From Paenibacillus sanguinis 2301083 = DSM 16941 (lineage in GTDB: Bacteria; Bacillota; Bacilli; Paenibacillales; Paenibacillaceae), in contig NZ_KB895381.1 in NCBI RefSeq assembly GCF_000374825.1, forward strand, positions 124,001-188,000: DNA of 64,000 nucleotides, given 5' to 3'. Shown piece after piece: positions 9,807 through 44,608 of this stretch (within the stretch, counting starts at the first letter, position 1; every line of letters begins with the position of its first letter). Made by a program: the position numbers and the translations under genes. The notes below the pieces were generated by a model. That model was not told the origin of the DNA. It did no database searches and saw nothing but the letters and a program-made list of their open reading frames with translations.

Positions 9807-9814
9807 GTGGCGCT

Positions 9815-11608
9815 ATGAGATTAACAAACAAGCTGATCCTGTCTTATATTGTGCTAATTACTCTCCCTCTGGTCACTTTAGGAGCAGGTTCTTTTTATGC
9901 CAGTAAAAATATCATGCTTAAGCTGGCTCAAGATAACGTGACAGAAATCGTGCAAAAAAACAATCAGATTATCGACGAACGACTGAAAATTATTCAGGAC
10001 GATAGTCTTTCCCTGATGGTCGAATGCGATTTGTTTGAAATTTTCGACAACGCTCCTTCATCATCAAGTGAACTGCTCGCAGCGAATAAACGGGTCACGG
10101 AAATCTTGAATCGTTACTTTTCCCAATCCAGGGATTTGTACTCGGTGGAGCTTGTGACCCGGGCATATGTTTATGGAAGCAAAGCACGCAATACGTATCC
10201 GCCCACCCACTTTTATGATTCCGAGCTGTATAGACAGGCAGCAGCGCAAAAGGGGCGTTTAGCGTGGGTGCCTACTTATGATTACAGCCTGATGCATCAA
10301 CTGCCTGATCTGGCGCAATCCGATATTGAATATCGCTTTTTATTTTCAGCTGTTCGGCAATTAAACCCTTCCTGTGTGCGGAATGATGTGATTGTGAGGG
10401 CCGAAGCAGGCTCGGAAAAGCCGATTCTGGTAATGAACTTTCAGGATCGTCTGTATGCCGATCTTTTTCGGAACAGCATTCCAATTGAAGGCGCCACATT
10501 TTTAGTGGTCAGTAAGGAGGGAAGAATTATTTCGCATGAGAATGCGGAGCTCGTGGGGCAGCGCCCGGTTCTTCCCTGGTTGGCTGAAATACAAAATCGC
10601 GGCAGTGGAGCCTCCTATATTACAGAGGACGGGCAACAGATGATTGCCTGCTTCGTGACATCAACCGTCACAGGCTGGACTTCGGTGGCACTTATTCCTC
10701 CCGATGCGCTGACAAAAGATATCGCTCAAACCATCATCTTTTTTATCCTGACATTAGGTGCTTCGCTCTTGCTGCTCTCACTTTTGTTTGCTTACCTCAT
10801 CTCCATCAGGATCACCTCGCCGATCAGAAAGCTGCTGCTTGCCATCAAGCGGGTCAGCGGCGGTGACTTCAATGCCAGAATCAAGGTGGAGGACAAGGAC
10901 GAACTGGGACATGTGCTGCTGAAATTCAACAGTATGAATGAAGAGGTCAAGCAACTGATTGAGGAGAACTATGTGGTCAAGCTAAGAGAGCGTGAAACGG
11001 AAATCCTGGCCTTAAATATCCAGCTTAATCCCCATTTCTTATACAATACATTGAATATCATCAACTGGATGGCCCTGTATGGAGAGAAGGACCAGGTTAG
11101 CCGGATGGTGGTCAGTCTCTCACGGATGTTGCACTATACGACAGATAATCGTAAGGACTTGATGCCACTATTCAAAGATCTGGGCTGGCTGCGTGATTAC
11201 ATCTCCATTATGTCCAGCCGATTTGAGAACCGCTTTCGGGTTGATTACGACATCGAACCCGAACTGCTGGAGTTCCCGGTACCCAAGCTGTTTCTTCAAC
11301 CACTCATAGAGAATTCAATCATTCATGGCCTCAGAGATATGGAAAGTGGCGGGCTAATTACGATCTACGGACGTAGGCGGGAGGAGTATATCGAATTTTG
11401 TGTGGAGGATAATGGCTGCGGAATGACTCCGGAGCGCTTGCAGGAGGCATTAGCCGACAGCTCATCTCACATTGGAATCAAAAACATTGACAAGCGAATT
11501 AAGCTACTTTATGGCCCGGCTTACGGCGTTCATATTGAATCGGTTCCTGAGTTTGGCACGCGAGTCAAGCTGATTATTCCTCAGCATAGTTATAAAGAAA
11601 ACGGATGA
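9815..11608 (+). CDS. sensor histidine kinase, YesM type
   Basis: This is a 597-residue membrane kinase. TM1 spans about residues 7-29. An extracellular sensor region of about 260 residues (Cache-like) is followed by TM2 (IIFFILTLGASLLLLSLLF) and a HAMP domain (ITSPIRKLLLAIKRVSGGDF). The His_kinase domain has the phosphorylated His407 in LNPHFLYNTLN, and the ATPase domain has ENSIIHGL and EDNGCGM. ATG 9815 is used because it follows GGTGG and begins the canonical short cytoplasmic N-terminus; the open frame extends further upstream but overlaps the regulator. It presumably senses a sugar or a sugar-loaded binding protein and phosphorylates the regulator at 8202. Confidence 0.92.
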   Translation: MRLTNKLILSYIVLITLPLVTLGAGSFYASKNIMLKLAQDNVTEIVQKNNQIIDERLKIIQDDSLSLMVECDLFEIFDNAPSSSSELLAANKRVTEILNRYFSQSRDLYSVELVTRAYVYGSKARNTYPPTHFYDSELYRQAAAQKGRLAWVPTYDYSLMHQLPDLAQSDIEYRFLFSAVRQLNPSCVRNDVIVRAEAGSEKPILVMNFQDRLYADLFRNSIPIEGATFLVVSKEGRIISHENAELVGQRPVLPWLAEIQNRGSGASYITEDGQQMIACFVTSTVTGWTSVALIPPDALTKDIAQTIIFFILTLGASLLLLSLLFAYLISIRITSPIRKLLLAIKRVSGGDFNARIKVEDKDELGHVLLKFNSMNEEVKQLIEENYVVKLRERETEILALNIQLNPHFLYNTLNIINWMALYGEKDQVSRMVVSLSRMLHYTTDNRKDLMPLFKDLGWLRDYISIMSSRFENRFRVDYDIEPELLEFPVPKLFLQPLIENSIIHGLRDMESGGLITIYGRRREEYIEFCVEDNGCGMTPERLQEALADSSSHIGIKNIDKRIKLLYGPAYGVHIESVPEFGTRVKLIIPQHSYKENG

Positions 11609-11630
11609 GCGAAAAATCATACAAAAAACG

Positions 11631-11672
11631 AAAAAACCTCCCATAGGCTTTCATAAAATATAAATTTACAAT
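11631..11672 (+). promoter_or_regulatory. A-tract/CATA element and -10 box before the importer
   Basis: A run of six A (11631-11636) is followed by CCTCC and CATA (11642-11645). A TACAAT -10 candidate lies at 11667-11672, 21 bp after CATA. The same layout recurs before 21481, 30035 and 33679. The -10 box also lies in the left arm of an inverted repeat, ATTTACAAT (11664-11672) and ATTGTAAAT (11698-11706), just ahead of the ribosome site, which could form an mRNA hairpin. Confidence 0.45.
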
Positions 11673-11721
11673 AAAGGCAGGCGACTGCAGCGCTTACATT
11701 GTAAATCAGGGGGAGCGGCAT

Positions 11722-13128
11722 ATGGTAGGTCACAAGGGTAAATGGAAGCTCGCATTTATATTTGTCATCATTACGGCTTTATTTGTAACCGCTTGCGGAG
11801 TAGAAAGCAGAGACGCAAAGACGAATGAGAGTCGTGAGGGCACTCAAAATAGTGGAACCGCGCAGGATAAGAAGGTAACCTTGAAATTCACATTCTGGGG
11901 CAGTCCGGAAGAAAAGAAAGCGGTGGAAGCCGCGATTACGGCGTTCGAACAGAAAAATCCGAATATTAAAGTGGATTCCATGCACATTCCGGGTACAGAT
12001 TTTCTACAGAAGCTTAATGCAATGATCGCCGGCAATGAAGCGCCTGATGTTAGCTACTCGGCTGCGTGGAAGTTGAAAATGGGCGAAGAAGGCTTGATAT
12101 ACAACTTCTTTGATTTAATGAAGGATGATCCGAGCATCCACAAGGAGGATTATCTGGAATATGCCTGGTGGAACTGGGATCAGGATAAAAGTGCCGGACC
12201 TTATCAGGCATCCGTCGTTCCTTCCCTGATGTATAACGCCGACATGTTTGAGGAGGCGGGAGTGGAGCTTCCTCCTATAAAGGCAGAGGAGGCCTGGACC
12301 TGGGATGAATTTGTGGAAGTGGCCAAGAAGCTGACGGTTGACCGCAATGGCAACCATCCGGACGACCCGGAGTTCGATCCGAAGAACATTAAGCAATATG
12401 GCGTCAAGCTGAGCCTTGGCTGGTCGTCTTATATGCCTATGGTTCTGTCAAATGGCGGGGATTATTTAACAGCGGACGGAAAGGAGCTGGGTCTTGCTCA
12501 ACCGGAAGCGACTGAGGCGCTACAAAAAATAGCCGATCTGATCAATGTGCATCATGTCTCGCCATCACCGATCCAGGCTAGCAGTATTCCTGCACCAGCT
12601 ACGGCGTTGCAGTCTAAAAAGGTAGCGATGATCATTGATGGAAGTTGGAATCATCTTGATTTGAGCAAAACCAATATCAACTGGGGCGTTGGCGTACTTC
12701 CCGTGATTAAGGACTACAAAACCTTTTTTCTCGGCGGTTCTCTGATCATTTTCAAAAGCTCTGAGCATCCGAAGGAAGCCTGGGAGTTCACCAAGTTTTT
12801 GACGGACCCTCAGAACGTGCTTGATTTGCACCAGGGCTTGTGGATGCCGCAGCTTAATAAATGGTATGAGGATCCGGAATTGATTGACAAGTGGGCAAGT
12901 GAGGAGCTTCCGGGCAGACCAGCCGGATTTCAAGACGCTGTGATGCGGTCCACCTACGAGCATGCGGAGCCATCGCCGGAGAACAATGTCAAGAATTTCG
13001 TTGAAATCGATGCCGCAGTTTCTGCCGCATTGGACCAGGTTTGGCTTGGTGAGAAAACAGCCGAACAGGCCATGAAGGAAGTGGAAACGAAAGTGAAGTC
13101 GCTGGTACAAGGCACTTATTTGAAATAA
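11722..13128 (+). CDS. extracellular sugar-binding lipoprotein
   Basis: This is a 468-residue family 1 solute-binding protein. The signal peptide runs to the lipobox FVTAC at about residues 20-24, followed by a polar Ser/Asn/Thr-rich linker. The fold begins with LKFTFWGSPEEKKAVEAAI and contains the expected ITAFEQKNPNI and SKKVAMIIDGSWNH segments. Two permeases follow at once. The location after a YesN/YesM pair indicates a signal-induced importer. There is no enzyme in the cluster to hint at the ligand, so the substrate is unknown. Confidence 0.92.
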   Translation: MVGHKGKWKLAFIFVIITALFVTACGVESRDAKTNESREGTQNSGTAQDKKVTLKFTFWGSPEEKKAVEAAITAFEQKNPNIKVDSMHIPGTDFLQKLNAMIAGNEAPDVSYSAAWKLKMGEEGLIYNFFDLMKDDPSIHKEDYLEYAWWNWDQDKSAGPYQASVVPSLMYNADMFEEAGVELPPIKAEEAWTWDEFVEVAKKLTVDRNGNHPDDPEFDPKNIKQYGVKLSLGWSSYMPMVLSNGGDYLTADGKELGLAQPEATEALQKIADLINVHHVSPSPIQASSIPAPATALQSKKVAMIIDGSWNHLDLSKTNINWGVGVLPVIKDYKTFFLGGSLIIFKSSEHPKEAWEFTKFLTDPQNVLDLHQGLWMPQLNKWYEDPELIDKWASEELPGRPAGFQDAVMRSTYEHAEPSPENNVKNFVEIDAAVSAALDQVWLGEKTAEQAMKEVETKVKSLVQGTYLK

Positions 13129-13211
13129 CGAGCGTCTGTCCGAAGGAGGCGCACGAGGTTTAAAGTGTTGCCTGCCTTCGGGCAAACGTTCCAACGAAGG
13201 GGAATTTGCTT

Positions 13212-14144
13212 ATGGAAGTCGTCTCTTCCCGTACCGGGATCGGCATGCGCAGGAAACATCGCTCCCGGAGCGAGCTTTCCGGTTGGCTGTTTGCCTCGCC
13301 GGCCATTTTGGGATTGCTTATTTTTACACTTGGGCCGATGGTTTACAGTTTGTATATGAGTTTTACCGATTATACCGGCTCGAACTCACCGACCTTTATC
13401 GGGCTTGATAATTATAAGCGAATGTTTAGTGGTGAAGACCAATATTTTTACAAGTCATTGGGTGTTACGTTTTATTTCGTTATTTTGAGTGTGCCTAGCG
13501 GGATTATCTACTCCTTTCTGCTGGCTATTCTTTTAAATCAGAACATCAAAGGAAAGGCCATTTTTCGCACCATCTTCTACCTGCCATCGATCGTGCCGGT
13601 CATTGCTATTTCGTTCATCTGGTTATGGTTGCTTAACCCTGATCTGGGTCTGGCTAACGAACTGCTCCGGTCTCTGGGTCTTCCGGGAAGTCAATGGATT
13701 TTTGGAGAGAAATCGGTAGTGCCTTCCTTAGCTTTAATGAACCTGTGGACTACTGGCGGAACAATGATTATTTTTCTGGCGGGATTACAGGATATTCCCC
13801 GCTCATTGTATGAAGCCATTGAGATGGATGGGGGAACAAGGCTTGCCAAGCTACGGCATATTACAATTCCCTTGATGACACCGACGATTTTCTTTAATTT
13901 GATCATGGGGATTATCAACGGCTTTCAGGTGTTCTCGCAGGCTTATGTTATGACCAATGGCGGGCCAAACAATGCCAGCTTGTTTTATGTATTTTATCTG
14001 TACCGGGAGGCGTTCCAGTTCTCGCGAATGGGGAGTGCAAGTGCCATTGCCTGGGTGTTGTTCGTTATTATTATGGTATTAACCTACATTGTGTTCAAGA
14101 CATCAAATAGATGGGTTTACTATGAGGGAGATGGTACGCGATGA
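13212..14144 (+). CDS. sugar ABC transporter permease, MalF type
   Basis: This 310-residue CUT1 permease has six predicted membrane segments. Early marks are SPAILGLLIFTLGPMVYSLY, SFTDYTG and FIGLDNYKRMF; the EAA loop is EAIEMDGGTRLAKLRHITI. ATG 13212 is preferred over TTG 13206 because GAAGGGG then sits about 9 bases upstream. The last four bases overlap the next gene (ATGA), so both channel subunits are coupled in translation. It pairs with 14141-14974 and the binding protein at 11722. Confidence 0.9.
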   Translation: MEVVSSRTGIGMRRKHRSRSELSGWLFASPAILGLLIFTLGPMVYSLYMSFTDYTGSNSPTFIGLDNYKRMFSGEDQYFYKSLGVTFYFVILSVPSGIIYSFLLAILLNQNIKGKAIFRTIFYLPSIVPVIAISFIWLWLLNPDLGLANELLRSLGLPGSQWIFGEKSVVPSLALMNLWTTGGTMIIFLAGLQDIPRSLYEAIEMDGGTRLAKLRHITIPLMTPTIFFNLIMGIINGFQVFSQAYVMTNGGPNNASLFYVFYLYREAFQFSRMGSASAIAWVLFVIIMVLTYIVFKTSNRWVYYEGDGTR

Positions 14145-14974
14145 GAGCCAAGGTTTGGTTAGGAAAGGGACTAATCTATCTGGTACTGACAGCCGGGGCC
14201 ATCTTCAGTTTGCTGCCGCTGGTCTGGCTGATCCGCAGTTCACTGATGAATATGGGGCAAATTTTTGAATTGCCGCCAGTGTGGATTCCCCGGCCCATTC
14301 AATTTTCCAATTACACTGAAGCGCTGACCATACTTCCCTTTGGTCAATATTTTGTCAATACGGCCATCATTGTCATCTTTTCGGTACTGGGCGTTATAGT
14401 TACCAGCTCGATCAGTGCCTATAGCTTTGCTCGGATGAAGTGGAGAGGCAAGAACCTGGTATTTGGGCTGTTGCTCTCCAGCATGATGCTGCCGTACGCC
14501 GTTACGCTTATTCCGACATTTGTCGGCTGGAGCCAAGTGGGTCTGACCAATTCTTTTATTCCGCTCATTGCACCAGCCTGGCTTGGTGGAGGAGCGTTTA
14601 ACATCTTCTTGCTTCGCCAGTTTTATCTGAGTATTCCCCGGGATCTGGATGAAGCGGCTTATGTAGACGGTGCTGGACACTTGCGGATTTTTCGGTCGAT
14701 CATTCTGCCATTGACCAAACCTGCTTTAATTGTCGTTGGCTTATTTTCCTTTCTAGCTGCTTGGAATGACTTTTTGGGTCCGCTGGTTTATCTGAATGAT
14801 GAGACCAAGTATACATTGGCTCTGGGATTACAACAGTTTAAAGGGATGTATTCAGCCGAGTGGCATTTGATGATGGCAGCCGCTACCGTCGTGCTTCTTC
14901 CTGCCATTATCGTATTTTTCATCGGTCAACGCTATTTCATTGAAGGCATTACGTTAACAGGCATCAAAGCCTGA
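14141..14974 (+). CDS. sugar ABC transporter permease, MalG type
   Basis: This is a 277-residue partner permease. It has the IRSSLMNMGQIFELPPVWIP periplasmic segment, the SFARMKWRGK loop, and the EAA motif EAAYVDGAGHLRIFRSIIL. The C-terminus (GQRYFIEGITLTGIKA) is typical of MalG-like subunits. It overlaps the upstream permease by 4 bp. Two terminator-like hairpins follow within 190 bp, so this gene ends the response-regulator-linked importer cluster. As in the other clusters here, an ATPase must come from elsewhere. Confidence 0.92.
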   Translation: MRAKVWLGKGLIYLVLTAGAIFSLLPLVWLIRSSLMNMGQIFELPPVWIPRPIQFSNYTEALTILPFGQYFVNTAIIVIFSVLGVIVTSSISAYSFARMKWRGKNLVFGLLLSSMMLPYAVTLIPTFVGWSQVGLTNSFIPLIAPAWLGGGAFNIFLLRQFYLSIPRDLDEAAYVDGAGHLRIFRSIILPLTKPALIVVGLFSFLAAWNDFLGPLVYLNDETKYTLALGLQQFKGMYSAEWHLMMAAATVVLLPAIIVFFIGQRYFIEGITLTGIKA

Positions 14975-15230: not shown

Positions 15231-15259
15231 TTGACTAGTTGGAATAATAGGAATATAGT
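15231..15259 (+). promoter_or_regulatory. sigma-A promoter of the gntR-met operon
   Basis: TTGACT (15231-15236), a 17-bp spacer and TATAGT (15254-15259) form a near-consensus promoter. Transcription should start near 15266, with two overlapping palindromes at 15291-15312 downstream. Confidence 0.75.
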
Positions 15260-15290
15260 ATAAAAAAGCTTTTACATAGGGTTCTAAATA

Positions 15291-15312
15291 AATTGTATAC
15301 AATTGTACAATT
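15291..15312. promoter_or_regulatory. overlapping palindromic operators for the GntR regulator
   Basis: AATTGTATACAATT (15291-15304) and AATTGTACAATT (15301-15312) are both perfect palindromes that share AATT. They lie in the leader of the operon between the promoter and the regulator gene, as expected for autoregulation by a GntR/FCD protein. Confidence 0.7.
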
Positions 15313-15347
15313 CCCCTCGAGATTATCAAAGAGGAGATGGATAGCGA

Positions 15348-16016
15348 GTGATGAGATCACGAAGGTTGTCAAAGGACAATGCTTATTATGAATTAAAGCA
15401 AAAAATTATAGATAGCGAGCTGAAGCCGAATCAAGCTGTACATGAAGAGAATTTGGCAGCATTGCTCGGGGTCAGCCGCACACCGTTAAGGGAGGCCATA
15501 CAGAGGCTGGAGCATGAGGATTTTCTCGTTCGACAGCCCAATGGGAGACTGAGGGTTGCTTCCATAACGGCTAAAGAGGCCGAAGAGGTTTTTCTTGTTC
15601 GCAGCATGCTTGAAGGCTATATTGCGAGGAATGCGGCGAAGCATGCCACCGATGAGGATGTGCAAAAATTAACAGCAATTCTTGAGAATCTAAAACGGTC
15701 CTTCCAGCTAGGCGATAATCAGAACTTTGTATCCTATGGCTTTGAATTTCATGATTATTTATCAAAAATGAGCGAGCTTGTCGTTTTCGAGAAGGTTTTG
15801 AATCAATTAAGAGGCCACTCGCTTCGCTACTGTCGATTTGTTTCCTTGCACGGAGATTGGACAAAGCAGGCGGATGAAGAACATGGCTTAATCCTGCAAA
15901 TGATAGCTGACAGAAATGAAGACGGCGCTGAGAAAGCCATGCGAGAGCATATTACAGGCAGTCTGTCTATAGCAATAGAGACAATAAGAGGAATAGAAGA
16001 AGACAAGGAGACATGA
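15348..16016 (+). CDS. GntR-family regulator with FCD ligand domain
   Basis: This is a 222-residue protein. The N-terminal winged helix-turn-helix has the GntR signature VHEENLAALLGVSRTPLREA at about residues 27-46. The C-terminal all-helical FCD domain (residues 80-215) has the metal/ligand-binding type histidines in EFHDYL and EEHGLIL. It starts at GTG 15348 or ATG 15351, with GAGGAG upstream. It heads an operon with a methionine-type importer, a methyltransferase-like protein, ProC and a VOC protein, so its ligand is likely the imported compound or a metabolite of it. Confidence 0.9.
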   Translation: MMRSRRLSKDNAYYELKQKIIDSELKPNQAVHEENLAALLGVSRTPLREAIQRLEHEDFLVRQPNGRLRVASITAKEAEEVFLVRSMLEGYIARNAAKHATDEDVQKLTAILENLKRSFQLGDNQNFVSYGFEFHDYLSKMSELVVFEKVLNQLRGHSLRYCRFVSLHGDWTKQADEEHGLILQMIADRNEDGAEKAMREHITGSLSIAIETIRGIEEDKET

Positions 16017-16068
16017 GTGCAAGCGCAGGCTTCATCCTAACTTTAGAAAATGATTGAGGGGAACCAAC

Positions 16069-17112
16069 ATGATTGAATTAAAGAATGTGTCCAAGACGTT
16101 CACTCGGAAAGGAACCACGATCGAGGCTCTGAAGGGAGTCAGCCTAAAGGTTGAAAAGGGCGATATCTTCGGGGTAATCGGCTATAGCGGCGCCGGAAAA
16201 AGCACATTAATTCGTCTCGTCAACTATCTGGAACGACCGACTGAAGGACAAGTCCTGGTAAATGGGCGCGACTTGGGAACCTACAGCGATAAAGAGCTGC
16301 GCCTGGTCAAGAAAAATATAGGGATGATCTTTCAGCATTTCAACCTGCTGGAGTCGAAGAAAGTGTTTGATAATGTAGCGATTCCCCTCGTCCTGCTAAA
16401 AAAGAGCAAAAGCGAGATCCGTCAGCGGGTGCAGGAGCTGCTGGAGTTCGTGGGATTAAGCGACAAGGCGGGGAGCTATCCGAGCGAGCTGTCCGGGGGA
16501 CAGAAGCAGCGGGTTGGCATCGCCCGAGCGCTGGCCTCGAATCCGTCGATTCTCTTGTGTGACGAAGCCACCTCCGCGCTTGATCCGCAGACCACGCAAT
16601 CTATTTTGCAGCTTTTAAAAAGAATCAATGCGGAATATAACATCACGGTCATGATCATTACCCATGAAATGTCTGTCATTCAAGAAATCTGCAACAAGGT
16701 AGCGGTGATGGAGGAGGGGCGAATTATCGAGCAAGGGAGCGTGCTGGAGGTGTTTGGCCATCCTCGGCATGAGACCACGAAGAATTTTGTGAAGACCGTG
16801 GTTCAGACCAGCATGACGCCTAGTGTTGAGCAATCATTAAAGGCAGAGCATGGAAGCCTGCTCTACAAGCTTCACTTTGTGGGCAGAAGTGCTTCCGAGC
16901 CGATTCTCTATGAGATGATCCGTTCCTTCGAGATCAAGGTCAATATCCTGTTTGCCAATATGACTGAAATTCAAGAGACAACGTTGGGAACAGCGATCAT
17001 CCAATTGTCGGGTGATCGACAGACGGCAAAGGATGCCCTGGCATTTTTAATACAGCATGGAGTCAGTGTGGAGGAGGTAGAGTCGCATGTTTTCGACCGC
17101 AATCACGAGTGA
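16069..17112 (+). CDS. metN: methionine-type ABC importer ATPase MetN
   Basis: This is a 347-residue ATPase. Walker A is GYSGAGKST (residues 38-46), the signature is LSGGQKQRVGIARAL, and Walker B is LLCDEATSALDP. The C-terminal 80 residues form the NIL domain that in MetN binds methionine and inhibits transport. ATG 16069 follows GAGGGG. It overlaps metP by 26 bp. Together with 17087 and 18807 it makes a complete MetNPQ importer. The family transports D/L-methionine and related compounds; the companion genes suggest a related methylated substrate, which is inference. Confidence 0.92.
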   Translation: MIELKNVSKTFTRKGTTIEALKGVSLKVEKGDIFGVIGYSGAGKSTLIRLVNYLERPTEGQVLVNGRDLGTYSDKELRLVKKNIGMIFQHFNLLESKKVFDNVAIPLVLLKKSKSEIRQRVQELLEFVGLSDKAGSYPSELSGGQKQRVGIARALASNPSILLCDEATSALDPQTTQSILQLLKRINAEYNITVMIITHEMSVIQEICNKVAVMEEGRIIEQGSVLEVFGHPRHETTKNFVKTVVQTSMTPSVEQSLKAEHGSLLYKLHFVGRSASEPILYEMIRSFEIKVNILFANMTEIQETTLGTAIIQLSGDRQTAKDALAFLIQHGVSVEEVESHVFDRNHE

Positions 17113-17746
17113 ACAATTTTTGAAGGCCATTGTAGAGACGATTCAGATGGTGGGGGTCTCTCTTTTCGTGGGTTCCTTAATCGGGATTCCCTTGGGAATA
17201 TTACTAGTCACAACCCGCCCGGGCGGCGTACTGGAGAACAATTCGCTCTATGCCATCCTGAATCCGATCATCAACATCGTTCGCTCCCTGCCCTTCATTA
17301 TTTTGCTGGTCGCTATTACTCCATTTACCCGGCTGATCGTTCACACCTCGATTGGGACGAGCGCGGCGATCGTACCGCTGATCATCTATATCGCGCCTTA
17401 TATTGCCCGGTTAGTAGAGAACTCTCTGCTTGAGGTGAACCCGGGAATTCTTGAAGCCGCCGAGGCTATGGGGGCGACGCCCTTGCAGGTGATCTGGTAT
17501 TTCTTGCTGCCGGAAGCCGTGGGCTCATTAATTCTGTCGCTGACCACAGCAACGATCGGCTTGATCGGGGCAACCGCCATGGCCGGAACCGTGGGCGGCG
17601 GGGGAGTGGGAGACTTGGCGATCGTATACGGCTATCAACGCTTTGACACTGTAGTCGTGGTAACCACCGTGATCATACTTGTCATTTTAGTCCAGGGAAT
17701 ACAGTCTTTAGGAAATATGCTGGCGAGAAAAATTCGCCGTTATTAA
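17087..17746 (+). CDS. metP: methionine-type ABC importer permease MetP (MetI)
   Basis: This is a 219-residue, five-segment permease of the MetI class. Its marks are LLVTTRPGGVLENN, IVRSLPFIILLVAI and the cytoplasmic loop EAAEAMGATPLQVIWYFLLPEA, with a glycine-rich GATAMAGTVGGGGVGDLAI segment before the last helix. Length is normal. It is translationally coupled to metN (start inside the metN 3-prime end, with GGAGGAGG as ribosome site). The partners are MetN and the lipoprotein MetQ, which is separated from it by a methyltransferase-like gene. Confidence 0.93.
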   Translation: MFSTAITSEQFLKAIVETIQMVGVSLFVGSLIGIPLGILLVTTRPGGVLENNSLYAILNPIINIVRSLPFIILLVAITPFTRLIVHTSIGTSAAIVPLIIYIAPYIARLVENSLLEVNPGILEAAEAMGATPLQVIWYFLLPEAVGSLILSLTTATIGLIGATAMAGTVGGGGVGDLAIVYGYQRFDTVVVVTTVIILVILVQGIQSLGNMLARKIRRY

Positions 17747-17775
17747 ATAACAACAGATAAGGGAGAGACCTACAA

Positions 17776-18795
17776 TTGAGTAACTGGAGCAAGCAAGATC
17801 GATTCCATGCCCTGTTATCCGGAGAGCGGGCGGACCGTCCTATAGTCAGCGGGTGGCGCCATTTTATTGACAAGGAACAGAATGCGGAGGATTTGGCGGA
17901 CATTACGATTTCATTTACGAAAAAATACGATTGGGATTGGGTCAAAATTAATCCGAGAGCGACTTACTTGGCGGAAGCCTGGGGCAATCAATATGATTTT
18001 ACCGATTATCAAACCGTATTTCCCCGGCAGAAATCAACGGTGATCCCAGTGGCGGAAAGCCTGTGGGAGCTTGAGGTAAAGAAGGCGGCTCGGACGCCAT
18101 CCCTGCAGGAGCATCTGGAGGCAGTTAGGAAGGTACGTCAAGGGTTACCCGATACCCCGCTAATTCAGACGGTCTTCTCCCCCTTAACGGTGCTGCTGTT
18201 CATTGTGGGACGATCGGCTTATGTAACCAAGACGGTATTCGGGATCGAGCAGCCCGTTACTTTGGACTCGTTGTTCAAGGAGCACCGGGCGGCCGCTCAC
18301 CACGCGCTGCATGCCATCGCATTAACCTTGGCCGATTATGTGCAAGAGCTGCGGCAGGCCGGCTCGGACGGCTTGTTCTACGCGGTGACCGGCACGGCGC
18401 ATCCGGGATTGTTTGATGAAGCCAGGTTTGATGAGTTCTCCAGACCCTATGATTCCATCGTTCTTGAGGCCGCCAGCTATGGCAAGAATATTCTTCACAC
18501 CTGCGGCGCCCATTCGCAGCCGGAGAAATTCAATGACTACCGCATTGACGGGATCAGCTGGGATACTGCGGCCGAAGGCAATCCAGGTCTGGATGCGAAC
18601 CTCAAAGCTACTAAAGTAGGCGGGGTTGATCATGAATTGTTCGCCGCAAACGATATTGCACAGATTCGCAAGCAAGCGAAGGAAGCTTTGACATTAATGA
18701 AGGACCAACCGTTTATTCTCTCGCCTAATTGTGCCATTCCATTGAATGTAACCGATGAGGCGTTGGAGCAATTTAAAAATATAATATTGGAATAG
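17776..18795 (+). CDS. UroD-fold zinc methyltransferase (MtaA/CmuA-like)
   Basis: This 339-residue protein of the uroporphyrinogen decarboxylase superfamily starts at TTG 17776 after GGGAGAG. It has His241-x-Cys243 in ILHTCGAHSQ and Cys319 in SPNCAIP. This is the HxC...C zinc-ligand pattern of MtaA, MtbA and CmuA, which activate a thiol to accept a methyl group; true HemE lacks it. I therefore favour a methyl transfer role over haem synthesis. It lies between metP and metQ, so it may act on what the importer brings in, for example demethylating it toward coenzyme or homocysteine. The methyl donor and acceptor are unknown. Confidence 0.75.
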   Translation: MSNWSKQDRFHALLSGERADRPIVSGWRHFIDKEQNAEDLADITISFTKKYDWDWVKINPRATYLAEAWGNQYDFTDYQTVFPRQKSTVIPVAESLWELEVKKAARTPSLQEHLEAVRKVRQGLPDTPLIQTVFSPLTVLLFIVGRSAYVTKTVFGIEQPVTLDSLFKEHRAAAHHALHAIALTLADYVQELRQAGSDGLFYAVTGTAHPGLFDEARFDEFSRPYDSIVLEAASYGKNILHTCGAHSQPEKFNDYRIDGISWDTAAEGNPGLDANLKATKVGGVDHELFAANDIAQIRKQAKEALTLMKDQPFILSPNCAIPLNVTDEALEQFKNIILE

Positions 18796-18806
18796 GAGAT
18801 GGGTGT

Positions 18807-19637
18807 ATGAAAAAGCTCATGTTGGTTATGTTGATCGGTGTTCTGGCGGTGCTGACGGCTTGCGGCAGCAAACAAGCGGACGAAGGCGGAGATAAGAAGA
18901 AGCTCACGGTCGGGTTTGGCGTCGGCACCTATGAGGAGCAGTTCCGGCAATCAATTTTGCCTATTCTGGAGAAGCAGGGCTATACTGTGGATATCAAAAC
19001 CTTCTCGCAAAATATGCAGGTCAATCCAGCGATGAAGGAAGGCTCCATTGACGCAAGCGTGTTCCAAAGCACCGCCTATATGGAAGCAATCAACGACGAA
19101 ATCGGCGCGGACATGGTAGGGATTGCTTATGTTCCGGGTGCGCCGCAAGGTCTGTACTCTGTCAACCATACTTCGCTGGATGAGGTTAAGGACGGCACCA
19201 CAGTAGCTGTTCCTAACGATCCGGTCAATCAGGAGCGCGCCCTTCGCATCCTGGAGGAGCTGGGCTGGATCAAGATTAAAGAAGGAGCAGGAGTTGCTGA
19301 TTTCAACATCAATAGTATGGAGCCGGACAAGTTTAATATCGATATTAAGATTTTGGACCCGGCACAAATTCTGGTATCGCTTCAAGATGTGGATTATGGG
19401 GTTGTAAACGGCAATTACATTGCCAATGCGCCGGACAGAAAGATTACTGATGCGCTTAAAATCGAAAATACACCGATGCAGCATAGAATCATCGTGTCGA
19501 TTAACAAAAAAGATGAGAACACGCAATGGGCAAAGGATTTGAAGGCCGCCTATGAATCGAAAGAGTTCGAGGAATACATCCTCGCGCAGGACAAATATGA
19601 TGGCTTTATTCTGCCGGAAGCATGGGCGAACAACTAA
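18807..19637 (+). CDS. metQ: methionine-type substrate-binding lipoprotein MetQ
   Basis: This is a 276-residue NlpA-family protein. The signal peptide ends in the lipobox LTAC (residues 16-19). The family marks are VGFGVGTYEEQF, FSQNMQVNPAMKEGSIDASVFQ and VAVPNDPVNQERALRILEE. NlpA/MetQ proteins bind methionine or its derivatives at the membrane face and hand them to MetNP. It follows the methyltransferase-like gene by 11 bp and lies 17 bp upstream of proC. The ligand pocket cannot be judged by eye, so a methionine-related compound is only the family default. Confidence 0.92.
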   Translation: MKKLMLVMLIGVLAVLTACGSKQADEGGDKKKLTVGFGVGTYEEQFRQSILPILEKQGYTVDIKTFSQNMQVNPAMKEGSIDASVFQSTAYMEAINDEIGADMVGIAYVPGAPQGLYSVNHTSLDEVKDGTTVAVPNDPVNQERALRILEELGWIKIKEGAGVADFNINSMEPDKFNIDIKILDPAQILVSLQDVDYGVVNGNYIANAPDRKITDALKIENTPMQHRIIVSINKKDENTQWAKDLKAAYESKEFEEYILAQDKYDGFILPEAWANN

Positions 19638-19654
19638 CGAAGGAAGTGGCCGAC

Positions 19655-20461
19655 ATGACAAGAAGAATTCATTTTATTGGCGGCGGACAGATGGCGGAAG
19701 CGATCATTCGGGCATGTATTGCCAAAAATACGCTGTCCGCAGAGCAGATCAGTGTATCCGATATTAACGAGGCGCGCCTCCAGCTGTTAAAGACCAAGTA
19801 CGGCGTGAATACGGAGGACAGGCAGGAGCAAACCCTCTCCACCGCAGCGTTAATCGTGTTGGCGGTTCGTCCCCAGGATGATTTGGCAGCACTTGGGCAC
19901 ATCGTACAGCAATTTGCCCCGCCGTCAGCCGTGATCGTGTCGATTGTAGCGGGCGTGACGATCCAGCAGCTGGGCGGCTACTTTGGCGCTGAACGCCCGA
20001 TCGTCCGGGTCATCCCGAATACGTTGACCGATACGGGATATGGCTATAGCGGCGTAGCCTTGAATGCGTTCGCTGCCCGGGAGCAGGTTGAAGATTTTCT
20101 GCTTGGCTTCGGCAAGGTACAATACCTGGAGGAATCGCTGATCGACGTCTTCACCGGATTTGGCGTAGCTGGACCTAACTATATCTATTACTTCATCGAG
20201 TCGCTTGCAGATGCCGGCGTGCTTGCCGGACTGCCGCGGGAGCAGGCGTGGAAGGTAACACTGGAGAATATGCTGGGCGCAGTTGCAATGCTGCAGCAGA
20301 CCGGCCTGCATCCGAGACAATTGCTTGATATTAACAACTCGCCCGGCGGAGTGGGGATTAACGGCCTGTATGAGCTGAACAACAGCGATTTCGCGGCCGG
20401 ATTGCAAAGAAGCGTCCTGGCGGCTGTGAAGCGGACCACAGAGCTGGGAGTGAAGAAATAA
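19655..20461 (+). CDS. proC: pyrroline-5-carboxylate reductase-like protein
   Basis: This is a 268-residue ProC-family protein. The N-terminal NAD(P) fold has IHFIGGGQMAEAI. The family segments VLAVRPQD, SIVAGVTIQQL, RVIPNTLTDTGYGYSG and FGVAGPNYIYYFIESLADAG follow, with the C-terminal NSPGGVGINGLYEL matching the ProC signature. ATG 19655 follows GAAGGAAG; the upstream in-frame start overlaps metQ. It ends one base into the next gene. ProC reduces pyrroline-5-carboxylate to proline. Its place in a metNPQ operon is unusual and suggests reduction of a related cyclic imine made from the imported compound, or a dedicated proline step. Confidence 0.85.
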   Translation: MTRRIHFIGGGQMAEAIIRACIAKNTLSAEQISVSDINEARLQLLKTKYGVNTEDRQEQTLSTAALIVLAVRPQDDLAALGHIVQQFAPPSAVIVSIVAGVTIQQLGGYFGAERPIVRVIPNTLTDTGYGYSGVALNAFAAREQVEDFLLGFGKVQYLEESLIDVFTGFGVAGPNYIYYFIESLADAGVLAGLPREQAWKVTLENMLGAVAMLQQTGLHPRQLLDINNSPGGVGINGLYELNNSDFAAGLQRSVLAAVKRTTELGVKK

Positions 20462-21225
20462 TGGCAAATTTCAAATGGGATCATCTGGTGCATTACATGA
20501 ATGATCTGGACAAGCCGGTGGAGCTATTTAAAGAGTACGGTTTGAGAGCCTCCAAGGGAGGCGCTCACAAGGCTTGGGGAACCTATAATGCCTTAAGTTA
20601 CTTTGGGTTAACTTATATTGAATTCCTTGGCATTGAGAACCTGGAATTAGCCAAGGCAACCGAGCATAATGTGGTAGTGAGAGATGCGGTCAAGGCTCTT
20701 CCCGATCATGAGGCTTTAAGTCGGGTTGTGCTGCGGACGGATGATATTGAAGGGGCGGCTGCTTTGCTAAAGACGGCGGGACTAACGTTGTCCCCGATCA
20801 TCGATGGGCGGCGTCTGGATCAGGAAGGTAGATTAATAGAGTGGCGAATGCTGACTATCGATGGCGACTTCCAGGGCCTGGTCTACCCATTTATCATTCA
20901 ATGGAGCGGGAATGATGAGAAAAGGCTGGCGCGCCTGTCCGCTTCCGGCGTCATCCGTCCTCACTCTTCGGGACAAGCAGCCATCGCAAAGGCTGTATTC
21001 CGCGTCACCGATCCCATAGCTGTTGCTGCCCATTGGGGAGCGTTATTTCAACTGCCTGTTATAAGAGCGGACGCTGAACAAGCTGCTTTGAAAATTGGAG
21101 ATCAGTCCTTTGACTTCGTGCAGGGAGACGAGAATCAGTTCAAACAGGTCATTATTGAAACAGATTCAGCGGTCTTACAAGGGAAAACCCTGCGGATTGG
21201 TGAAGGAGAATATGTCTTTGTTTGA
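20461..21225 (+). CDS. glyoxalase-like (VOC) domain protein
   Basis: This 254-residue protein starts with FKWDHLVHYMNDLDKPVELF, a match to the Glyoxalase_3-type branch of the vicinal oxygen chelate fold. It has the GGAHKAWGTYNAL and YIEFLGIEN strands. The C-terminal half is a second, weaker VOC-like module. The family is mostly uncharacterised. It is coupled to proC by a one-base overlap (TAATG) and is the last gene before the terminator at 21289. Chemistry on the imported compound is possible, but the specific reaction is unknown. Confidence 0.75.
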   Translation: MANFKWDHLVHYMNDLDKPVELFKEYGLRASKGGAHKAWGTYNALSYFGLTYIEFLGIENLELAKATEHNVVVRDAVKALPDHEALSRVVLRTDDIEGAAALLKTAGLTLSPIIDGRRLDQEGRLIEWRMLTIDGDFQGLVYPFIIQWSGNDEKRLARLSASGVIRPHSSGQAAIAKAVFRVTDPIAVAAHWGALFQLPVIRADAEQAALKIGDQSFDFVQGDENQFKQVIIETDSAVLQGKTLRIGEGEYVFV

Positions 21226-21288
21226 TCGTTGATGTCTATCAATCAAGCGGGTATCCAATCAGGCTAGAGGTTGAATTAATCTTACTGG

Positions 21289-21333
21289 AATCGCCCTTTT
21301 TCTGACTGCCGGGTCAGAGGAAGGGCGATTTTT
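21289..21333 (+). terminator. strong terminator after the met-type operon
   Basis: AATCGCCCTT and AAGGGCGATT pair perfectly, with an inner stem TCTGAC/GTCAGA, followed by TTTTTATT. This is a long intrinsic terminator 63 bp after the VOC gene. Confidence 0.9.
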
Positions 21334-21480: not shown

Positions 21481-22443
21481 GTGGAGAGTGGAACAGCGGT
21501 GCAAACCCGTATAAAGAGACGCAAAGAAAGCTCAGGTTTTGTCGATGAGATGAGAAAGAACTACTTGCTATATTTGATGGCTTTGCCTGGTATAGCCGTT
21601 ATCTTTATCTTCGCTTATTTACCGATGGGAGGGCTTGTGATTGCCTTTCAGGATTTCAATCCCATCAAGGGGATTACCGGAAGCGAGTTTGTTGGCTTCT
21701 CCAATTTCCGTTTTTTTGTAGAATCGAACGATACCCTTAAAGTTATTGCCAATACGCTATTTCTGAACTTGTTATTCATTTTCTGCGGTATGATGGTGTC
21801 CGTCCTGATCGCGGTCATGTTCTCGGAGATTGCCGGCAAGTGGTTCAAGCGAGTGACTCAAACCCTGGTTACACTGCCGAATTTTCTCTCTTGGACCGTC
21901 ATTTCCATGTTCTCGGTATCATTGCTTTCTTACGATACCGGTATGATTAACAAGTTTTTGGGCTTGTTCGGCATGGAACCGATTTCATTTTATAGTGAAC
22001 CTGGCTACTGGCCGTTAATTCTGGTGCTGTTGAAGATCTGGCAAGGCGCGGGCTTCGGTTCGATTGTCTATCTGGCAACGATTACCGGCATCAACCCGGA
22101 TATTTATGAATCCGCATCCATTGATGGAGCAAGCCGTTGGCACAAAATCCGGTTCATCACCTTGCCGCTTTTGAAGCCTACCATTATATTGATGCTGCTT
22201 CTGGCCATGGGCGGGATCTTCTACGGAGATTTCGGAATGATCTATGCCTTGGTTGGGCGGAACGTCTCTCTTTATCCGACCACGGATGTCATCGATACTT
22301 ATGTCTATCGTGCGCTGATGGATTTAGGAGATATGAGTATGGCAGCCGCAGTAGGCTTTTTCCAATCGGTCGTGGGCTTCATCTTAGTATTCAGTGTGAA
22401 TATGATAGCGAGAAAATTCAGTCCGGAATCGGCACTGTTCTAA
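21481..22443 (+). CDS. LplB-type polysaccharide ABC permease
   Basis: This 320-residue CUT1 permease of the LplB/YtcP class starts at GTG 21481 with ATAGGAGG upstream. It has MRKNYLLYLMALPGIAVIFI, the PMGGLVIAFQDFNPIKGI loop, GFSNFRFF and the EAA loop ESASIDGASRWHKIRFITL. This class serves complex oligosaccharides and usually sits beside YesMN systems and polysaccharide enzymes. It is the first gene of the large locus that continues to about 40.65 kb and partners with 22475-23359 and the 535-residue binding protein. Confidence 0.92.
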   Translation: MESGTAVQTRIKRRKESSGFVDEMRKNYLLYLMALPGIAVIFIFAYLPMGGLVIAFQDFNPIKGITGSEFVGFSNFRFFVESNDTLKVIANTLFLNLLFIFCGMMVSVLIAVMFSEIAGKWFKRVTQTLVTLPNFLSWTVISMFSVSLLSYDTGMINKFLGLFGMEPISFYSEPGYWPLILVLLKIWQGAGFGSIVYLATITGINPDIYESASIDGASRWHKIRFITLPLLKPTIILMLLLAMGGIFYGDFGMIYALVGRNVSLYPTTDVIDTYVYRALMDLGDMSMAAAVGFFQSVVGFILVFSVNMIARKFSPESALF

Positions 22444-22474
22444 CCCCCAATCTTCAATTAAGGTAGGTGTAAAA

Positions 22475-23359
22475 ATGACTATTAAGGAATCAAGGGGAGA
22501 TCGACTGCTCAAAATCGCCATGTACGTCTTCCTGATTATGTTTGCCATGTATTGTCTCTTTCCGTTTATAACTGTGGTCAGCAGCTCTTTTTCTACGGAA
22601 AACAGCATTTTGAAATATGGCTACTCCATCTGGCCCAGAGAATTTTCGCTGGATGCGTACAAGCTGATTTTTAAGGATGCTACGATTTACAGATCCTATG
22701 CCGTAACGATTTTTGTGACTGTAGTCGGCACGGCACTGGCCATGCTCTTTACCTGTTCGTTAGCCTATCCGTTGTCGCTGAAGCATCTGAAATACAGAAA
22801 CGCCATTAACTTCTATGTCTACTTCACGATGCTGTTTAATGGCGGTCTTGTGGCCAGCTACCTGCTGATCAGCAAGTACCTGGGGATGTCGGATACGATC
22901 TGGGTGCTGATTATTCCGGCACTGGTCAGTCCCTGGAATATGTTCCTGATGCGGAATTTCTTCAAGTCCATCGATGAGTCGCTGGCGGAATCAGCCAAGA
23001 TCGACGGAGCTAACGATATTTATATTATGTTTCGGATTATCCTGCCCATCTCGATGCCGGCGATCGCCACGGTCGGATTATTTTACGCACTGGCTTTCTG
23101 GAATAAATGGTTTGAGGCTATGCTTTATATCTCTGACGAAAATCTTTGGCCACTGCAATATTTGATTATGCGCATCATGAACAATACGCAGTTTGCAGCC
23201 GAACTGGCTTCAAAGGTGAGTCTGCCTAACTATGTGGTGCCTACACTGACAACACGATTGGCTACGACGGTGGTGACGATTGGCCCGATTATTTTCCTTT
23301 ATCCATTCCTTCAGAAGTATTTTGTCAAGGGACTGATGGTGGGAGCGGTTAAGGGCTGA
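22475..23359 (+). CDS. LplC/YtcP-type polysaccharide ABC permease
   Basis: This is a 294-residue permease with six membrane segments. Its marks are PFITVVSSSFSTENSILKYG, FNGGLVASYLL and the EAA loop ESAKIDGANDIYIMFRIIL. The C-terminal FLQKYFVKGLMVGAVKG is typical of LplC. It lies 31 bp after its partner permease. A small imperfect hairpin (CTAAA..GCCT / AGGC..TTTAG, about 23382-23406) lies between this gene and the binding-protein gene. It could adjust mRNA levels so that the binding protein is made in excess. Confidence 0.92.
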   Translation: MTIKESRGDRLLKIAMYVFLIMFAMYCLFPFITVVSSSFSTENSILKYGYSIWPREFSLDAYKLIFKDATIYRSYAVTIFVTVVGTALAMLFTCSLAYPLSLKHLKYRNAINFYVYFTMLFNGGLVASYLLISKYLGMSDTIWVLIIPALVSPWNMFLMRNFFKSIDESLAESAKIDGANDIYIMFRIILPISMPAIATVGLFYALAFWNKWFEAMLYISDENLWPLQYLIMRIMNNTQFAAELASKVSLPNYVVPTLTTRLATTVVTIGPIIFLYPFLQKYFVKGLMVGAVKG

Positions 23360-23438
23360 CATGTATGTGTTATTTTCAACTAAATTCGCCTAACAGGCAG
23401 TTTAGCATAGAAACATAGGAAGAAAGGGAGGTATTGAA

Positions 23439-25046
23439 ATGAAAAGCAAACTTAAATTTACTGCTTCGTTAGTAGTATTTGCTTTACTGGTAGGTTCCCT
23501 GGTCGGATGCTCCGGCTCCAATGGAGCCGCTTCTTCGCCAAAAGCCGAGGGCTCCAGCACTGCTCTCGACCCGACTACGCTCAAAGTCATGTTATTTGGT
23601 GATAAGCCAGTCGATATGGACAAGGTTTTGAACGAATTTGAGAGCCGGACCAAGGATACGCTGAATACACAGCTCAATATCGAATTTAATCCGGCCTCCG
23701 ATCACAATCAGAAAACCAAGCTGAAGCTGGCGGCGGGCGAGGCCATCGACCTGATGTTCGATGCGCCATGGATGAACTTGAATCAGAACATCTCACAAGG
23801 GTTTTATCATGAACTGGATAAATATTTTAATAACGATGATTATCCCGGACTTAAGAAAGCGTTCTCAGAAGAATTCCTGAATGCTAACAAGATTAATGGC
23901 CATCTCTATGCCATCCCGATTACCAATATGTACTACGATTCCGAGGTGGTGTATATTCGCAAGGATCTGCGGGAGAAGTATGGCATGGAGCCTGTTCAGT
24001 CGTACGATGACTTGAAAACCTACCTGGACAATGTGAAAAAGAATGAGCCAAGTATGATTCCGTTTGCTCTAATGGGGGATCGTGGCTTCTTCAAAATGTT
24101 TGGCACAGAGGATAAGCAGACACAATTGCGTGCTGAGCCTTACTCCATTGCCGGAACAGGGGTTAACTTCAATCTGATCCTGTCGGATGACGGCAAACAG
24201 GTGCTGGGTGCGACAACACTGGGTGATCCGGCAGAGGAATATGCGAAATATCCGGCGCCGTTCAACGATGCTGAATATTTCTACGACTCAAATGATATCA
24301 AGGTGGAATGGAACCAGTATGTTCAGAAGGATGTGCTTAACGAGAAGGACCCCGCCGCTTTGTTCGTAAGCGGCAAATCAGCGGCCAACGAGAGCACGAT
24401 CAACGCCTTCGCAAGTATGAGAGATCGGCTCAAGAGCGCTGTTCCGGGCGCCGAGCTGGAGTTCTTCGTATATAACTCTAAAATCCGCGGTTTGGAGAAG
24501 GAAGCGATCGGCACGGAGTACAAGGCCTGGAACTATCTTGTTGTCCCGGCTACCTCCAAAAATGTGGACCGTACCATGAAATTTCTGGACTGGTTGTTCG
24601 GCAGCCAGGAGAACCATGACTTGTTCGAGCTTGGTATTGAAGGTACTCATTGGGAGAAATCAGGAGATCGTAATTACAAGACGACAGCTAACACCCAAAA
24701 TTATGCTTTCCCGGGTTATGAGCTAACCTGGAATCCAACATTGTCCCGGATTAATGCGGAGAACAGTGACGAGGCCTTGAAGATCATTAATTATCAAACT
24801 GAAGACAGCACTTACTATAAGCTGCCGCTGACCGGCTTTGTGTTCAATACGGAACCGGTCAAGACAGAGATTGCGAAGATTCAGCCAAAGGCCGCCGAGC
24901 TGGATCCGATTTTGAAGAATGGTCTTGAAAAAAATTGGCGTCAAAGCGCCGAGAAGCTCAATAAGGAGCTGCGCAATCTGGGATTGGAAAACGTTCGCGC
25001 CGAACTGGTGAAGCAAGCCCAGGAGTTTCTGGATCACAATCAGTAA
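23439..25046 (+). CDS. LplA-type oligosaccharide-binding lipoprotein
   Basis: This is a 535-residue lipoprotein with signal peptide and lipobox LVGC (residues 22-25). A Ser/Ala-rich linker and a large two-lobe binding fold follow (LKVMLFGDKPVDMDKVLNEF; LKLAAGEAIDLMFDAPWMNL). Length and the C-terminal region (a DUF3502-like tail with GFVFNTEPVKTEIAKI) fit the LplA class used for long oligosaccharides. It is the dedicated binding protein of the importer 21481-23359. The ribosome site AAGGGAGG is strong. The cargo is probably the product of the lyases encoded downstream. Confidence 0.92.
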   Translation: MKSKLKFTASLVVFALLVGSLVGCSGSNGAASSPKAEGSSTALDPTTLKVMLFGDKPVDMDKVLNEFESRTKDTLNTQLNIEFNPASDHNQKTKLKLAAGEAIDLMFDAPWMNLNQNISQGFYHELDKYFNNDDYPGLKKAFSEEFLNANKINGHLYAIPITNMYYDSEVVYIRKDLREKYGMEPVQSYDDLKTYLDNVKKNEPSMIPFALMGDRGFFKMFGTEDKQTQLRAEPYSIAGTGVNFNLILSDDGKQVLGATTLGDPAEEYAKYPAPFNDAEYFYDSNDIKVEWNQYVQKDVLNEKDPAALFVSGKSAANESTINAFASMRDRLKSAVPGAELEFFVYNSKIRGLEKEAIGTEYKAWNYLVVPATSKNVDRTMKFLDWLFGSQENHDLFELGIEGTHWEKSGDRNYKTTANTQNYAFPGYELTWNPTLSRINAENSDEALKIINYQTEDSTYYKLPLTGFVFNTEPVKTEIAKIQPKAAELDPILKNGLEKNWRQSAEKLNKELRNLGLENVRAELVKQAQEFLDHNQ

Positions 25047-25076
25047 TAGCTGTATAGAAACTGTCCCATACGAGTT

Positions 25077-25108: not shown

Positions 25109-25111
25109 AAT

Positions 25112-39499: not shown

Positions 39500-39517
39500 C
39501 TGAAAGTGTGGTGGAGG

Positions 39518-40653: not shown

Positions 40654-40655
40654 AG

Positions 40656-44607: not shown

Positions 44608-44608
44608 C

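Follow-up and report, generated by a model that had tools for sequence, protein, structure and literature searches.

In Bacillus subtilis, the scm (yxe), yha and ytn gene clusters act on S-modified cysteines and follow a logic of freeing cysteine from its adduct (PMC12757645, PMC9706529). N-acetylcysteine deacetylation during the breakdown of S-(2-succino)cysteine is assigned there to YxeP (PMC9706529), and ScmP, the newer name of YxeP, is described as an N-acetylcysteine deacetylase (PMC9706529, PMC12757645), the two names being equated by our own matching. A different group of systems comprises the UroD-fold zinc proteins MtaA/MtbA and the Mlps of type 1 mlp clusters, the latter combining multiple Mlps with a corrinoid protein and a Ram/RACE activase (PMC10418091). 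Here we describe a seven-gene operon that resembles each of these in part, from a 64,000-nucleotide stretch of the Paenibacillus sanguinis 2301083 (DSM 16941) genome (contig NZ_KB895381.1, positions 124,001 to 188,000; hereafter the window, whose own numbering is used). It encodes a GntR/FCD regulator, a MetNPQ-type ATP-binding cassette (ABC) importer, a UroD-fold protein, a ProC-like oxidoreductase and a Glyoxalase_3 (Glx3) protein. In one open-access library no paper combined the three operon terms, nor was any report of the operon found in the titles and abstract starts examined.

We propose, at a probability of about 0.5, that this regulated operon takes up and breaks down a derivative of a sulfur amino acid, most likely a cysteine with a substituent (S-alkylated or aldehyde-modified), and that it probably does so with enzymes repurposed from elsewhere in metabolism. 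Any single chemistry, be it S-dealkylation, thiazolidine opening or methyl transfer, deserves less confidence than this overall proposal, and we infer the substrate class, direction, order of steps and UroD reaction.

Results

A conserved operon joins three enzymes to an importer

The initial annotation had described a complete MetNPQ importer interleaved with a UroD-fold protein and followed by ProC and Glx3, all under one GntR/FCD regulator. All seven genes were found at the places it gave, on the forward strand, with neighbours overlapping or at most 52 bp apart, and Pfam and NCBIfam assign them to GntR/FCD, MetN (ABC + NIL), MetP, URO-D, Lipoprotein_9, P5CR and Glyoxalase_3. The operon is real and is found beyond a single strain. 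Paenibacillus, Fontibacillus and many Bacillaceae share the order MetN-MetP-UroD-MetQ-ProC-Glx3, with Neobacillus, Robertmurraya, Evansella, Gracilibacillus, Amphibacillus, Natronobacillus and Streptohalobacillus among the genera that carry it. This recurrence speaks for more than a chance arrangement, and a gene order peculiar to one strain, which the initial annotation had named as a refuting outcome, is not what is seen.

The three enzymes also travel together. Among 394 genomes of the family, a UroD search (E at most 1e-15) matched 65, six of them at 41-45% identity and 59 at 66% or more, the genes of G199 and G208 in the latter group being in pieces (G and L numbers denote genomes and loci). 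The operon ProC (E at most 1e-65) was found in 60 of the same genomes, namely all 59 with a close UroD and G090, and Glx3 (E at most 1e-40) in 61, namely the 59, G090 and G381; outside the 59, then, 335 genomes hold ProC in one case and Glx3 in two. Conserved order and co-occurrence in 59/59 genomes uphold the earlier suggestion that the three enzymes are functionally tied to the importer.

A wider scan of one genome from each of 84,980 species returned 138 relatives, the best 80 of which were retained for locus counts and grouped by UroD identity at thresholds that we set, with ProC counted from 55% identity. Where UroD is at least 75% identical (29 loci), MetN, MetP, MetQ, ProC and Glx3 are each present at 29/29, accompanied by GntR at 27, an M20-family gene at 26 and a pyridoxal phosphate (PLP) lyase gene at 10. 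At about 50-75% (20 loci) the counts are MetN 17, MetP 17, MetQ 20, ProC 19 and Glx3 19, with GntR at 5, M20 at 2 and PLP lyase at 7, six of these seven apparently being a methionine-biosynthesis PLP gene at about 40%. Below 50% (31 loci), MetN, MetP, MetQ and ProC are at 0, Glx3 at 1, M20 at 3, PLP lyase at 2 and GntR at 1; the ProC count of 0 misses one protein, 48% identical and therefore under the threshold, at L123. UroD-like genes at 25-30% (loci L164-L173) were used for context only.

Gene context in relatives points to a sulfur amino acid

The substrate had initially been pictured as a methylated amino acid or betaine-like compound. The linkage of the enzymes to the importer stands, but a betaine is not supported: the gene context in relatives points to a sulfur amino acid instead, because it contains a YxeP-type deacylase, a Cys/Met-type PLP lyase and methionine genes led by an S-adenosylmethionine (SAM) riboswitch. 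At 27 of the 29 close loci, one or two extra genes lie between gntR and metN, M20 in 26 cases and PLP lyase in 10; this variable insertion is seen at L047, L049-L051 and most of L061-L086. For the M20 protein of L047 the nearest solved protein is B. subtilis YxeP (E 1.6e-124), well ahead of the next (1.4e-69). The PLP enzyme of L047 is nearest to methionine gamma-lyase (MGL) but scores 477.2 against a cut-off of 549.7, and both it and its L123 counterpart have Gly at what we take to be the MGL active-site Cys (Cys115/116); the MGL name was dropped in favour of Cys/Met-type PLP lyase. Of seven relative loci scanned for a SAM riboswitch upstream, four have one (L099, L102, L103 and L105, not L087, L092 or L093). 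Such riboswitch-led methionine genes precede the operon in Amphibacillus and Natronobacillus, the order in Amphibacillus L102 being SAM riboswitch, methionine-biosynthesis PLP gene, core-MetE gene and then the operon.

In the window, gntR and metN are separated by 52 bp, with neither M20 nor PLP lyase genes, and the operon is apparently reduced in this strain; the loss is seen as an absence, the 52-bp gap not having been searched for remnants. Relocated copies elsewhere in the genome were considered and rejected, the best matches being 48% identical for each; for M20 this check took in the flanks of the two best matches.

On the pathway that we propose, MetNPQ would import a substituted cysteine, and the UroD-like enzyme would hold the substrate sulfur on a His/Cys/Cys zinc site, where the bond between sulfur and substituent may be broken, or the substituent transferred, with no dedicated corrinoid protein involved. 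Processing of the released fragment or ring would then fall to the ProC-like and Glx3 enzymes. Most close relatives would use a YxeP-type M20 deacylase to strip the cysteine of an N-acyl group, and some would use a PLP-dependent C-S lyase to degrade or recycle that cysteine. The whole unit is presumably controlled by the GntR/FCD regulator at a palindrome-like putative operator. More tentatively, and with distinctly less conviction than for the general proposal, the operon may represent a novel form of modified-cysteine recycling, combining a corrinoid-free MtaA-type zinc enzyme with a ProC neofunctionalised away from proline synthesis; the substituent might then be cleaved or transferred directly from a cysteine-type sulfur, or an aldehyde-cysteine thiazolidine opened.

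A predicted MtaA-like zinc enzyme and the question of methyl transfer

The UroD-fold gene (17776 to 18795, forward strand; Pfam URO-D, 4.5e-30) encodes a predicted zinc thiol enzyme. Its AlphaFold2 model, built from an alignment of 42 sequences, has a mean predicted local distance difference test (pLDDT) score of 95.2. Set against MtaA, HemE and MetE, as had been suggested, the model is closest to MtaA (4ay7; Z 34.1, root-mean-square deviation 2.2, 312 aligned residues, 20% identity), ahead of UroD (HemE) structures (Z 30-32) and of MetE (Z about 18-21). MtaA and HemE cannot be told apart by fold alone; the zinc ligands separate them. H241, C243 and C319, noted at the outset as the HxC and Cys of thiol-activating methyltransferases, are invariant in 42/42 aligned sequences (the window protein and 41 others) and fall in the alignment on the HxC and Cys of 4ay7, while the Cys ligands are missing from the aligned tobacco HemE (1j93) and from the HemE of the same genome. 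The site is accordingly predicted, from sequence, to bind zinc. Further invariant residues (W27, H29, E34, W53, D54, K57, N59, R61, E67, Q131, D226 and W262) suggest a specific polar pocket. A single-sequence phmmer search of the PDB gave no match at E 0.001, while a profile search did find matches. In another Paenibacillaceae group of UroD-like proteins (L039 and L040, about 27% identical), the His is kept and the first Cys lost (HGTG against HTCG).

These properties bear on the original pathway idea, in which a methylated amino acid or betaine is imported, the UroD-like protein moves its methyl group to a thiol or folate, and ProC reduces a cyclic imine. In its favour, no solved structure is closer than that of MtaA, whose zinc ligands are conserved, the importer belongs to the MetNPQ family, and the only two NCBIfam matches of the protein are methylcobalamin:coenzyme M methyltransferases, albeit far under their cut-offs (57.3 against 244 for PRK06252 and 39.7 against 400 for MtaA_Meth). 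The core-MetE gene upstream in the Amphibacillus group is the only neighbour that favours methyl chemistry. However, no methyl donor or acceptor enzyme occurs among the seven genes, the neighbours in relatives are a deacylase and a C-S lyase, and ProC has lost its carboxylate-binding Thr pair (see below). Transfer of the MtaA type without a corrinoid would also need a donor, and nothing in the operon data identifies one.

The corrinoid partner, a vitamin B12 protein with which known relatives of the enzyme act, is a further difficulty. As first noted, none of the seven genes encodes one. The 57 operon genomes were searched with PF02607 (B12-binding_2), a model that does not cover carriers recognisable only by PF02310. 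The P. sanguinis genome gave one match, in a MetH-sized frame of 1155 aa, and hence no dedicated corrinoid methyl-carrier by this search; G071, a draft 99% complete, gave zero. A single match was found in 24/57 genomes, P. sanguinis included, and 23 of these 24 lie in MetH-sized frames of 1145-1213 aa. One frame (G157), at 219 aa, is the length of a methyl carrier; no short corrinoid protein common to all 57 carriers was recognised by PF02607. As the operon has no partner genes and PF02607 gives the one MetH-sized match in the genome, we rejected both a type 1 mlp cluster and a methyltransferase system of the corrinoid kind, and we regard the methyl pathway as a whole as unlikely, even if it is the strongest competitor of the modified-cysteine proposal.

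A diverged ProC and the thiazolidine alternative

The ProC-like gene (19655 to 20461, forward strand) encodes a pyrroline-5-carboxylate reductase (P5CR)-like oxidoreductase with a diverged substrate loop (INNSPGGVG and GVAGPN). It is one of three P5CR-family genes in the genome; a second adjoins a proA-like gene, and the third we take to be ComER. Across the window protein and 45 aligned operon ProCs, HPRQLLDINNS.GGVG and GVAGPN are conserved at 90% or more, at sites where the solved P5CRs 3gt0 and 5bse have SPGGTT and SGSSPA/SGSGPA and where the other ProC of the same genome has SPNGST and SGSGPA. E. coli ProC binds proline carboxylate through Thr235 and Thr236 (PMC12899673), and PYCR1 Thr-238 binds proline carboxylate and contacts thiazolidine (PMC7939384). 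Operon ProCs carry Val-Gly in place of the Thr pair, as does the L123 orthologue, whose other loop differs. We assume here that the published residues correspond to the two Thr of the motif, the mapping being our own. Because the carboxylate-binding pair is lost, the operon ProC is probably not a proline enzyme and probably acts on another substrate; the reduction of a cyclic imine cannot simply be read from the name ProC. The gene that follows (20461 to 21225, forward strand) encodes a Glyoxalase_3 (VOC) protein (Pfam, 8.5e-38), a conserved partner of the others.

An alternative is the recycling of an aldehyde-cysteine adduct, thiazolidine-4-carboxylate. The ProC-like protein would oxidise the ring to a thiazoline that opens to N-acylcysteine, from which M20 would free cysteine; the PLP lyase would degrade the cysteine, the UroD zinc would aid ring opening or take up a one-carbon unit, and the VOC protein would handle the aldehyde. 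There is precedent in E. coli ProC, which oxidises thioproline and ultimately regenerates cysteine (PMC12899673). The M20 protein is YxeP-like, and Xaa-Pro dipeptidase-like genes lie beside distant UroDs in L117 and L140. Against this, the thiazolidine-contacting Thr-238 of PYCR1 is Gly in the operon proteins by our mapping, although the motif Ser is kept, the role left for UroD is ad hoc, and E. coli ProC already performs this reaction. We judge this scheme somewhat less probable again than the methyl pathway.

A MetNPQ-type importer that need not carry methionine

The importer comprises a MetN-type ATPase with ABC_tran and NIL domains (16069 to 17112), a MetP/MetI-type permease (17087 to 17746; BPD_transp_1) that exceeds the PRK10782 cut-off (214.9 bits against 212), and a MetQ-type binding lipoprotein (18807 to 19637; Lipoprotein_9, 3.5e-51), all on the forward strand. 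This family membership, and the retention in operon MetQs of the NQER Arg and the NGNY Asn, would fit an ordinary importer of methionine (or D-methionine) that is accompanied by passenger enzymes. We presume roles in amino acid binding for these two residues and for the altered positions described next. At those positions operon MetQs read FQSTAY where GNA1946 (which we take to be the Neisseria MetQ; 3gxa, 7mbz and 3ir1, the nearest solved entries) and two paralogues in the same genome have FQHxPY, and APQ where GNA1946 has APL; a changed side-chain pocket is suggested, and only suggested, by these substitutions. MetN and MetQ both fall under their NCBIfam cut-offs, at 402.7 bits against 499.7 (the best model for the ATPase) and 102.7 against 374. 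Elsewhere the genome holds one weak Lipoprotein_9 match and two stronger genes of this family, both with permease- and ATPase-like neighbours. Furthermore, conservation is as high for the three enzymes as for the importer, and in L123 they occur with a different one, which makes the passenger explanation improbable.

The idea that the UroD-like gene is merely a uroporphyrinogen decarboxylase paralogue, to which the Pfam match, the fold and the small gap between HemE and MtaA structures (Z about 32 against 34) lend some colour, was ruled out, since a canonical HemE is a separate gene (contig C2) adjoining a hemH-like gene, shows no significant BLASTP match to the operon protein (E 0.35) and, like tobacco HemE, lacks the Cys ligands.

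The same enzymes with other importers

Importer types at distant UroD loci were mostly assigned by inspection. In Bifidobacterium subtile (L123), genes for PLP lyase, M20 and UroD share about 9 kb with those for a Liv-like binding protein, Glx3, ProC (48%) and another UroD, and further Liv-like genes come next; this is an independent assembly around an importer different from MetNPQ. In Sporosarcina limicola (L112), a Dpp-like importer, M20, GntR, a PLP lyase (63%) and UroD (42%) precede an SSADH-type gene. Distant UroDs at L111, L116 and L122 occur with Pot-like importers and HyuA/HyuB-like genes, and that at L117 with a Dpp-like importer, gamma-glutamyltranspeptidase and the Xaa-Pro dipeptidase-like gene; other importers are Liv-like (Chloroflexota), ECF-like (L130 and L140) and FecB-like (L114 and L118).

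Distant UroDs stand beside HyuA/HyuB-type genes at L111, L116, L117, L119, L120 and L122, as judged by family search for the HyuB of the L111 genome (as L033) and the HyuA of L116 and by inspection for the GGTFTD motif in the rest. ApcE, an acetophenone carboxylase subunit, is a fold neighbour of the UroD-like model, and a carboxylase-like complex of this kind was considered for UroD; because ApcE itself has the UroD fold, the UroD-Hyu partnership may be general. In Lactobacillales, UroD genes (35%) directly follow ECF transporter A, A and T-like genes, recognised by inspection, at L130 (10001-11017) and L140 (5772-6755), with an S-component-like gene at both (that of L140 unassigned by NCBIfam) and a PepQ-like M24 gene at L140, forming a compact version that lends itself to a search for the substrate. 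Near the more distant UroDs of L166 and L167 (25-27%) are genes with a CTEP motif close to the start, a motif of cysteine desulfidases of the CyuA/YhaM type, to which these genes may belong.

Boundaries, regulation and surroundings of the operon

A promoter-like site, TTGACT-17-TATAGT, lies at 15231 to 15259 on the forward strand (consensus scan, 10/12); the scan found 16 sites in the region against 8.0 expected by shuffling, and this one is weak evidence taken alone. Downstream of it, at 15293 to 15310 on the same strand, is a putative operator of the GntR/FCD regulator, TTGTATACAATTGTACAA; the sequence upstream of gntR reads TTGTATACAATTRTACAA. Of the 28 relative loci resolved as gntR-first, 26 have the operator core close to where gntR begins, L097 and L112 being without it. 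The exact 18-mer is present once in the genome, where one more site has two mismatches, and 0.12 occurrences are expected in the window at up to three mismatches. The second site, on contig C32, adjoins another GntR/FCD-like gene and a 6-phosphogluconate-dehydrogenase-like gene, both named by inspection, and was not taken as a member of the regulon. The regulator itself (15348 to 16016, forward strand; Pfam FCD 9.2e-26 and GntR 2.2e-15) gave 14 NCBIfam matches, 14/14 under their cut-offs. An intrinsic terminator closes the unit at 21287 to 21332 on the forward strand, with a 21-bp stem followed by a T-run (-32.8 kcal/mol, z -5.14); 0/200 shuffles were equally stable, and the consensus scan did not list this terminator. 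No riboswitch or T-box in the window matched Rfam at the gathering threshold.

Gene neighbours outside the Pfam and NCBIfam searches were named by inspection. On this basis, apparent sugar-type ABC importers with sensor kinases flank the operon (9503-14974 and 21481-28583), a response-regulator-like gene lying among those downstream. Further along the window (34001-42000 and 44001-46000), a rise in G+C to about 0.55-0.57 is followed by a drop to 0.37, which suggests segments of different origin.

Discussion

Several observations weigh against the modified-cysteine proposal. The window itself lacks M20 and PLP lyase, the two most telling sulfur genes, and holds no N-acetyltransferase among its seven genes that might supply an N-acyl group. 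The riboswitch-led genes of L102 may be a separate transcription unit, given a gap of about 700 bp. Distant UroDs (35-44%) accompany many kinds of importer (Dpp-, Pot-, Liv-, ECF- and FecB-like), and their HyuA/HyuB, gamma-glutamyltranspeptidase and Xaa-Pro dipeptidase-like neighbours would fit peptides or lactams equally well. L176 keeps MetQ-ProC-Glx3 without UroD, and G181, G185, G203 and G208 have second ProC-Glx3 copies with which no UroD was matched; against a strict unit, the UroD of a second copy in G209 (L182) is no more than a fragment and L181 has Glx3 alone. The operon ProC scores above the TIGR00112 proC equivalog cut-off (205.5 bits against 196.75). Finally, 32/57 operon genomes have two to four PF02607 matches, with extra frames of 219-402 aa, in addition to any carriers that only PF02310 would recognise.

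Should the modified-cysteine proposal be correct, it would add a corrinoid-free reaction to the UroD/MtaA superfamily, mark a conserved 'pyrroline-5-carboxylate reductase' subfamily as probably misannotated, and offer a route, open to testing, for the recovery of sulfur from modified cysteine by plant- and soil-associated Bacilli. It would also warn that a MetNPQ annotation need not mean methionine. As UroD relatives occur with several importer types, one solved member would help to annotate many clusters.

The operon shares elements with four described systems. With MtaA/MtbA and the Mlps it has in common the UroD fold, the HxC and Cys zinc ligands and neighbours from sulfur metabolism (PMC10418091); it differs in having a single UroD gene and neither a corrinoid protein nor an activase. 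In the structural alignment the identity of its UroD-like protein to MtaA is about 20%, and the protein scores under the MtaA NCBIfam cut-offs. The hosts also differ, being Bacilli for the operon and obligate anaerobes for the MtaA and mlp systems; Bacilli with the operon include aerobic genera. MetE and core-MetE are fold relatives that use zinc and are independent of B12, and a core-MetE gene lies upstream in L102, yet they form a separate family and no folate partner is known for the operon. P5CR is matched in family score, yet SPGGVG and GVAGPN replace its substrate motifs. Closest in logic are the B. subtilis scm (yxe), yha and ytn clusters, which likewise pair an importer (ABC-type in yxe) with the release of cysteine from an adduct, and share the YxeP-type M20 protein with relatives of the operon (PMC12757645, PMC9706529). 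The seven genes of the window lack their acetyltransferase, monooxygenase/2SL and M20, the neighbours in relatives being partly annotated, and bring instead a UroD-fold enzyme, a diverged ProC, a VOC protein and a MetNPQ-type importer.

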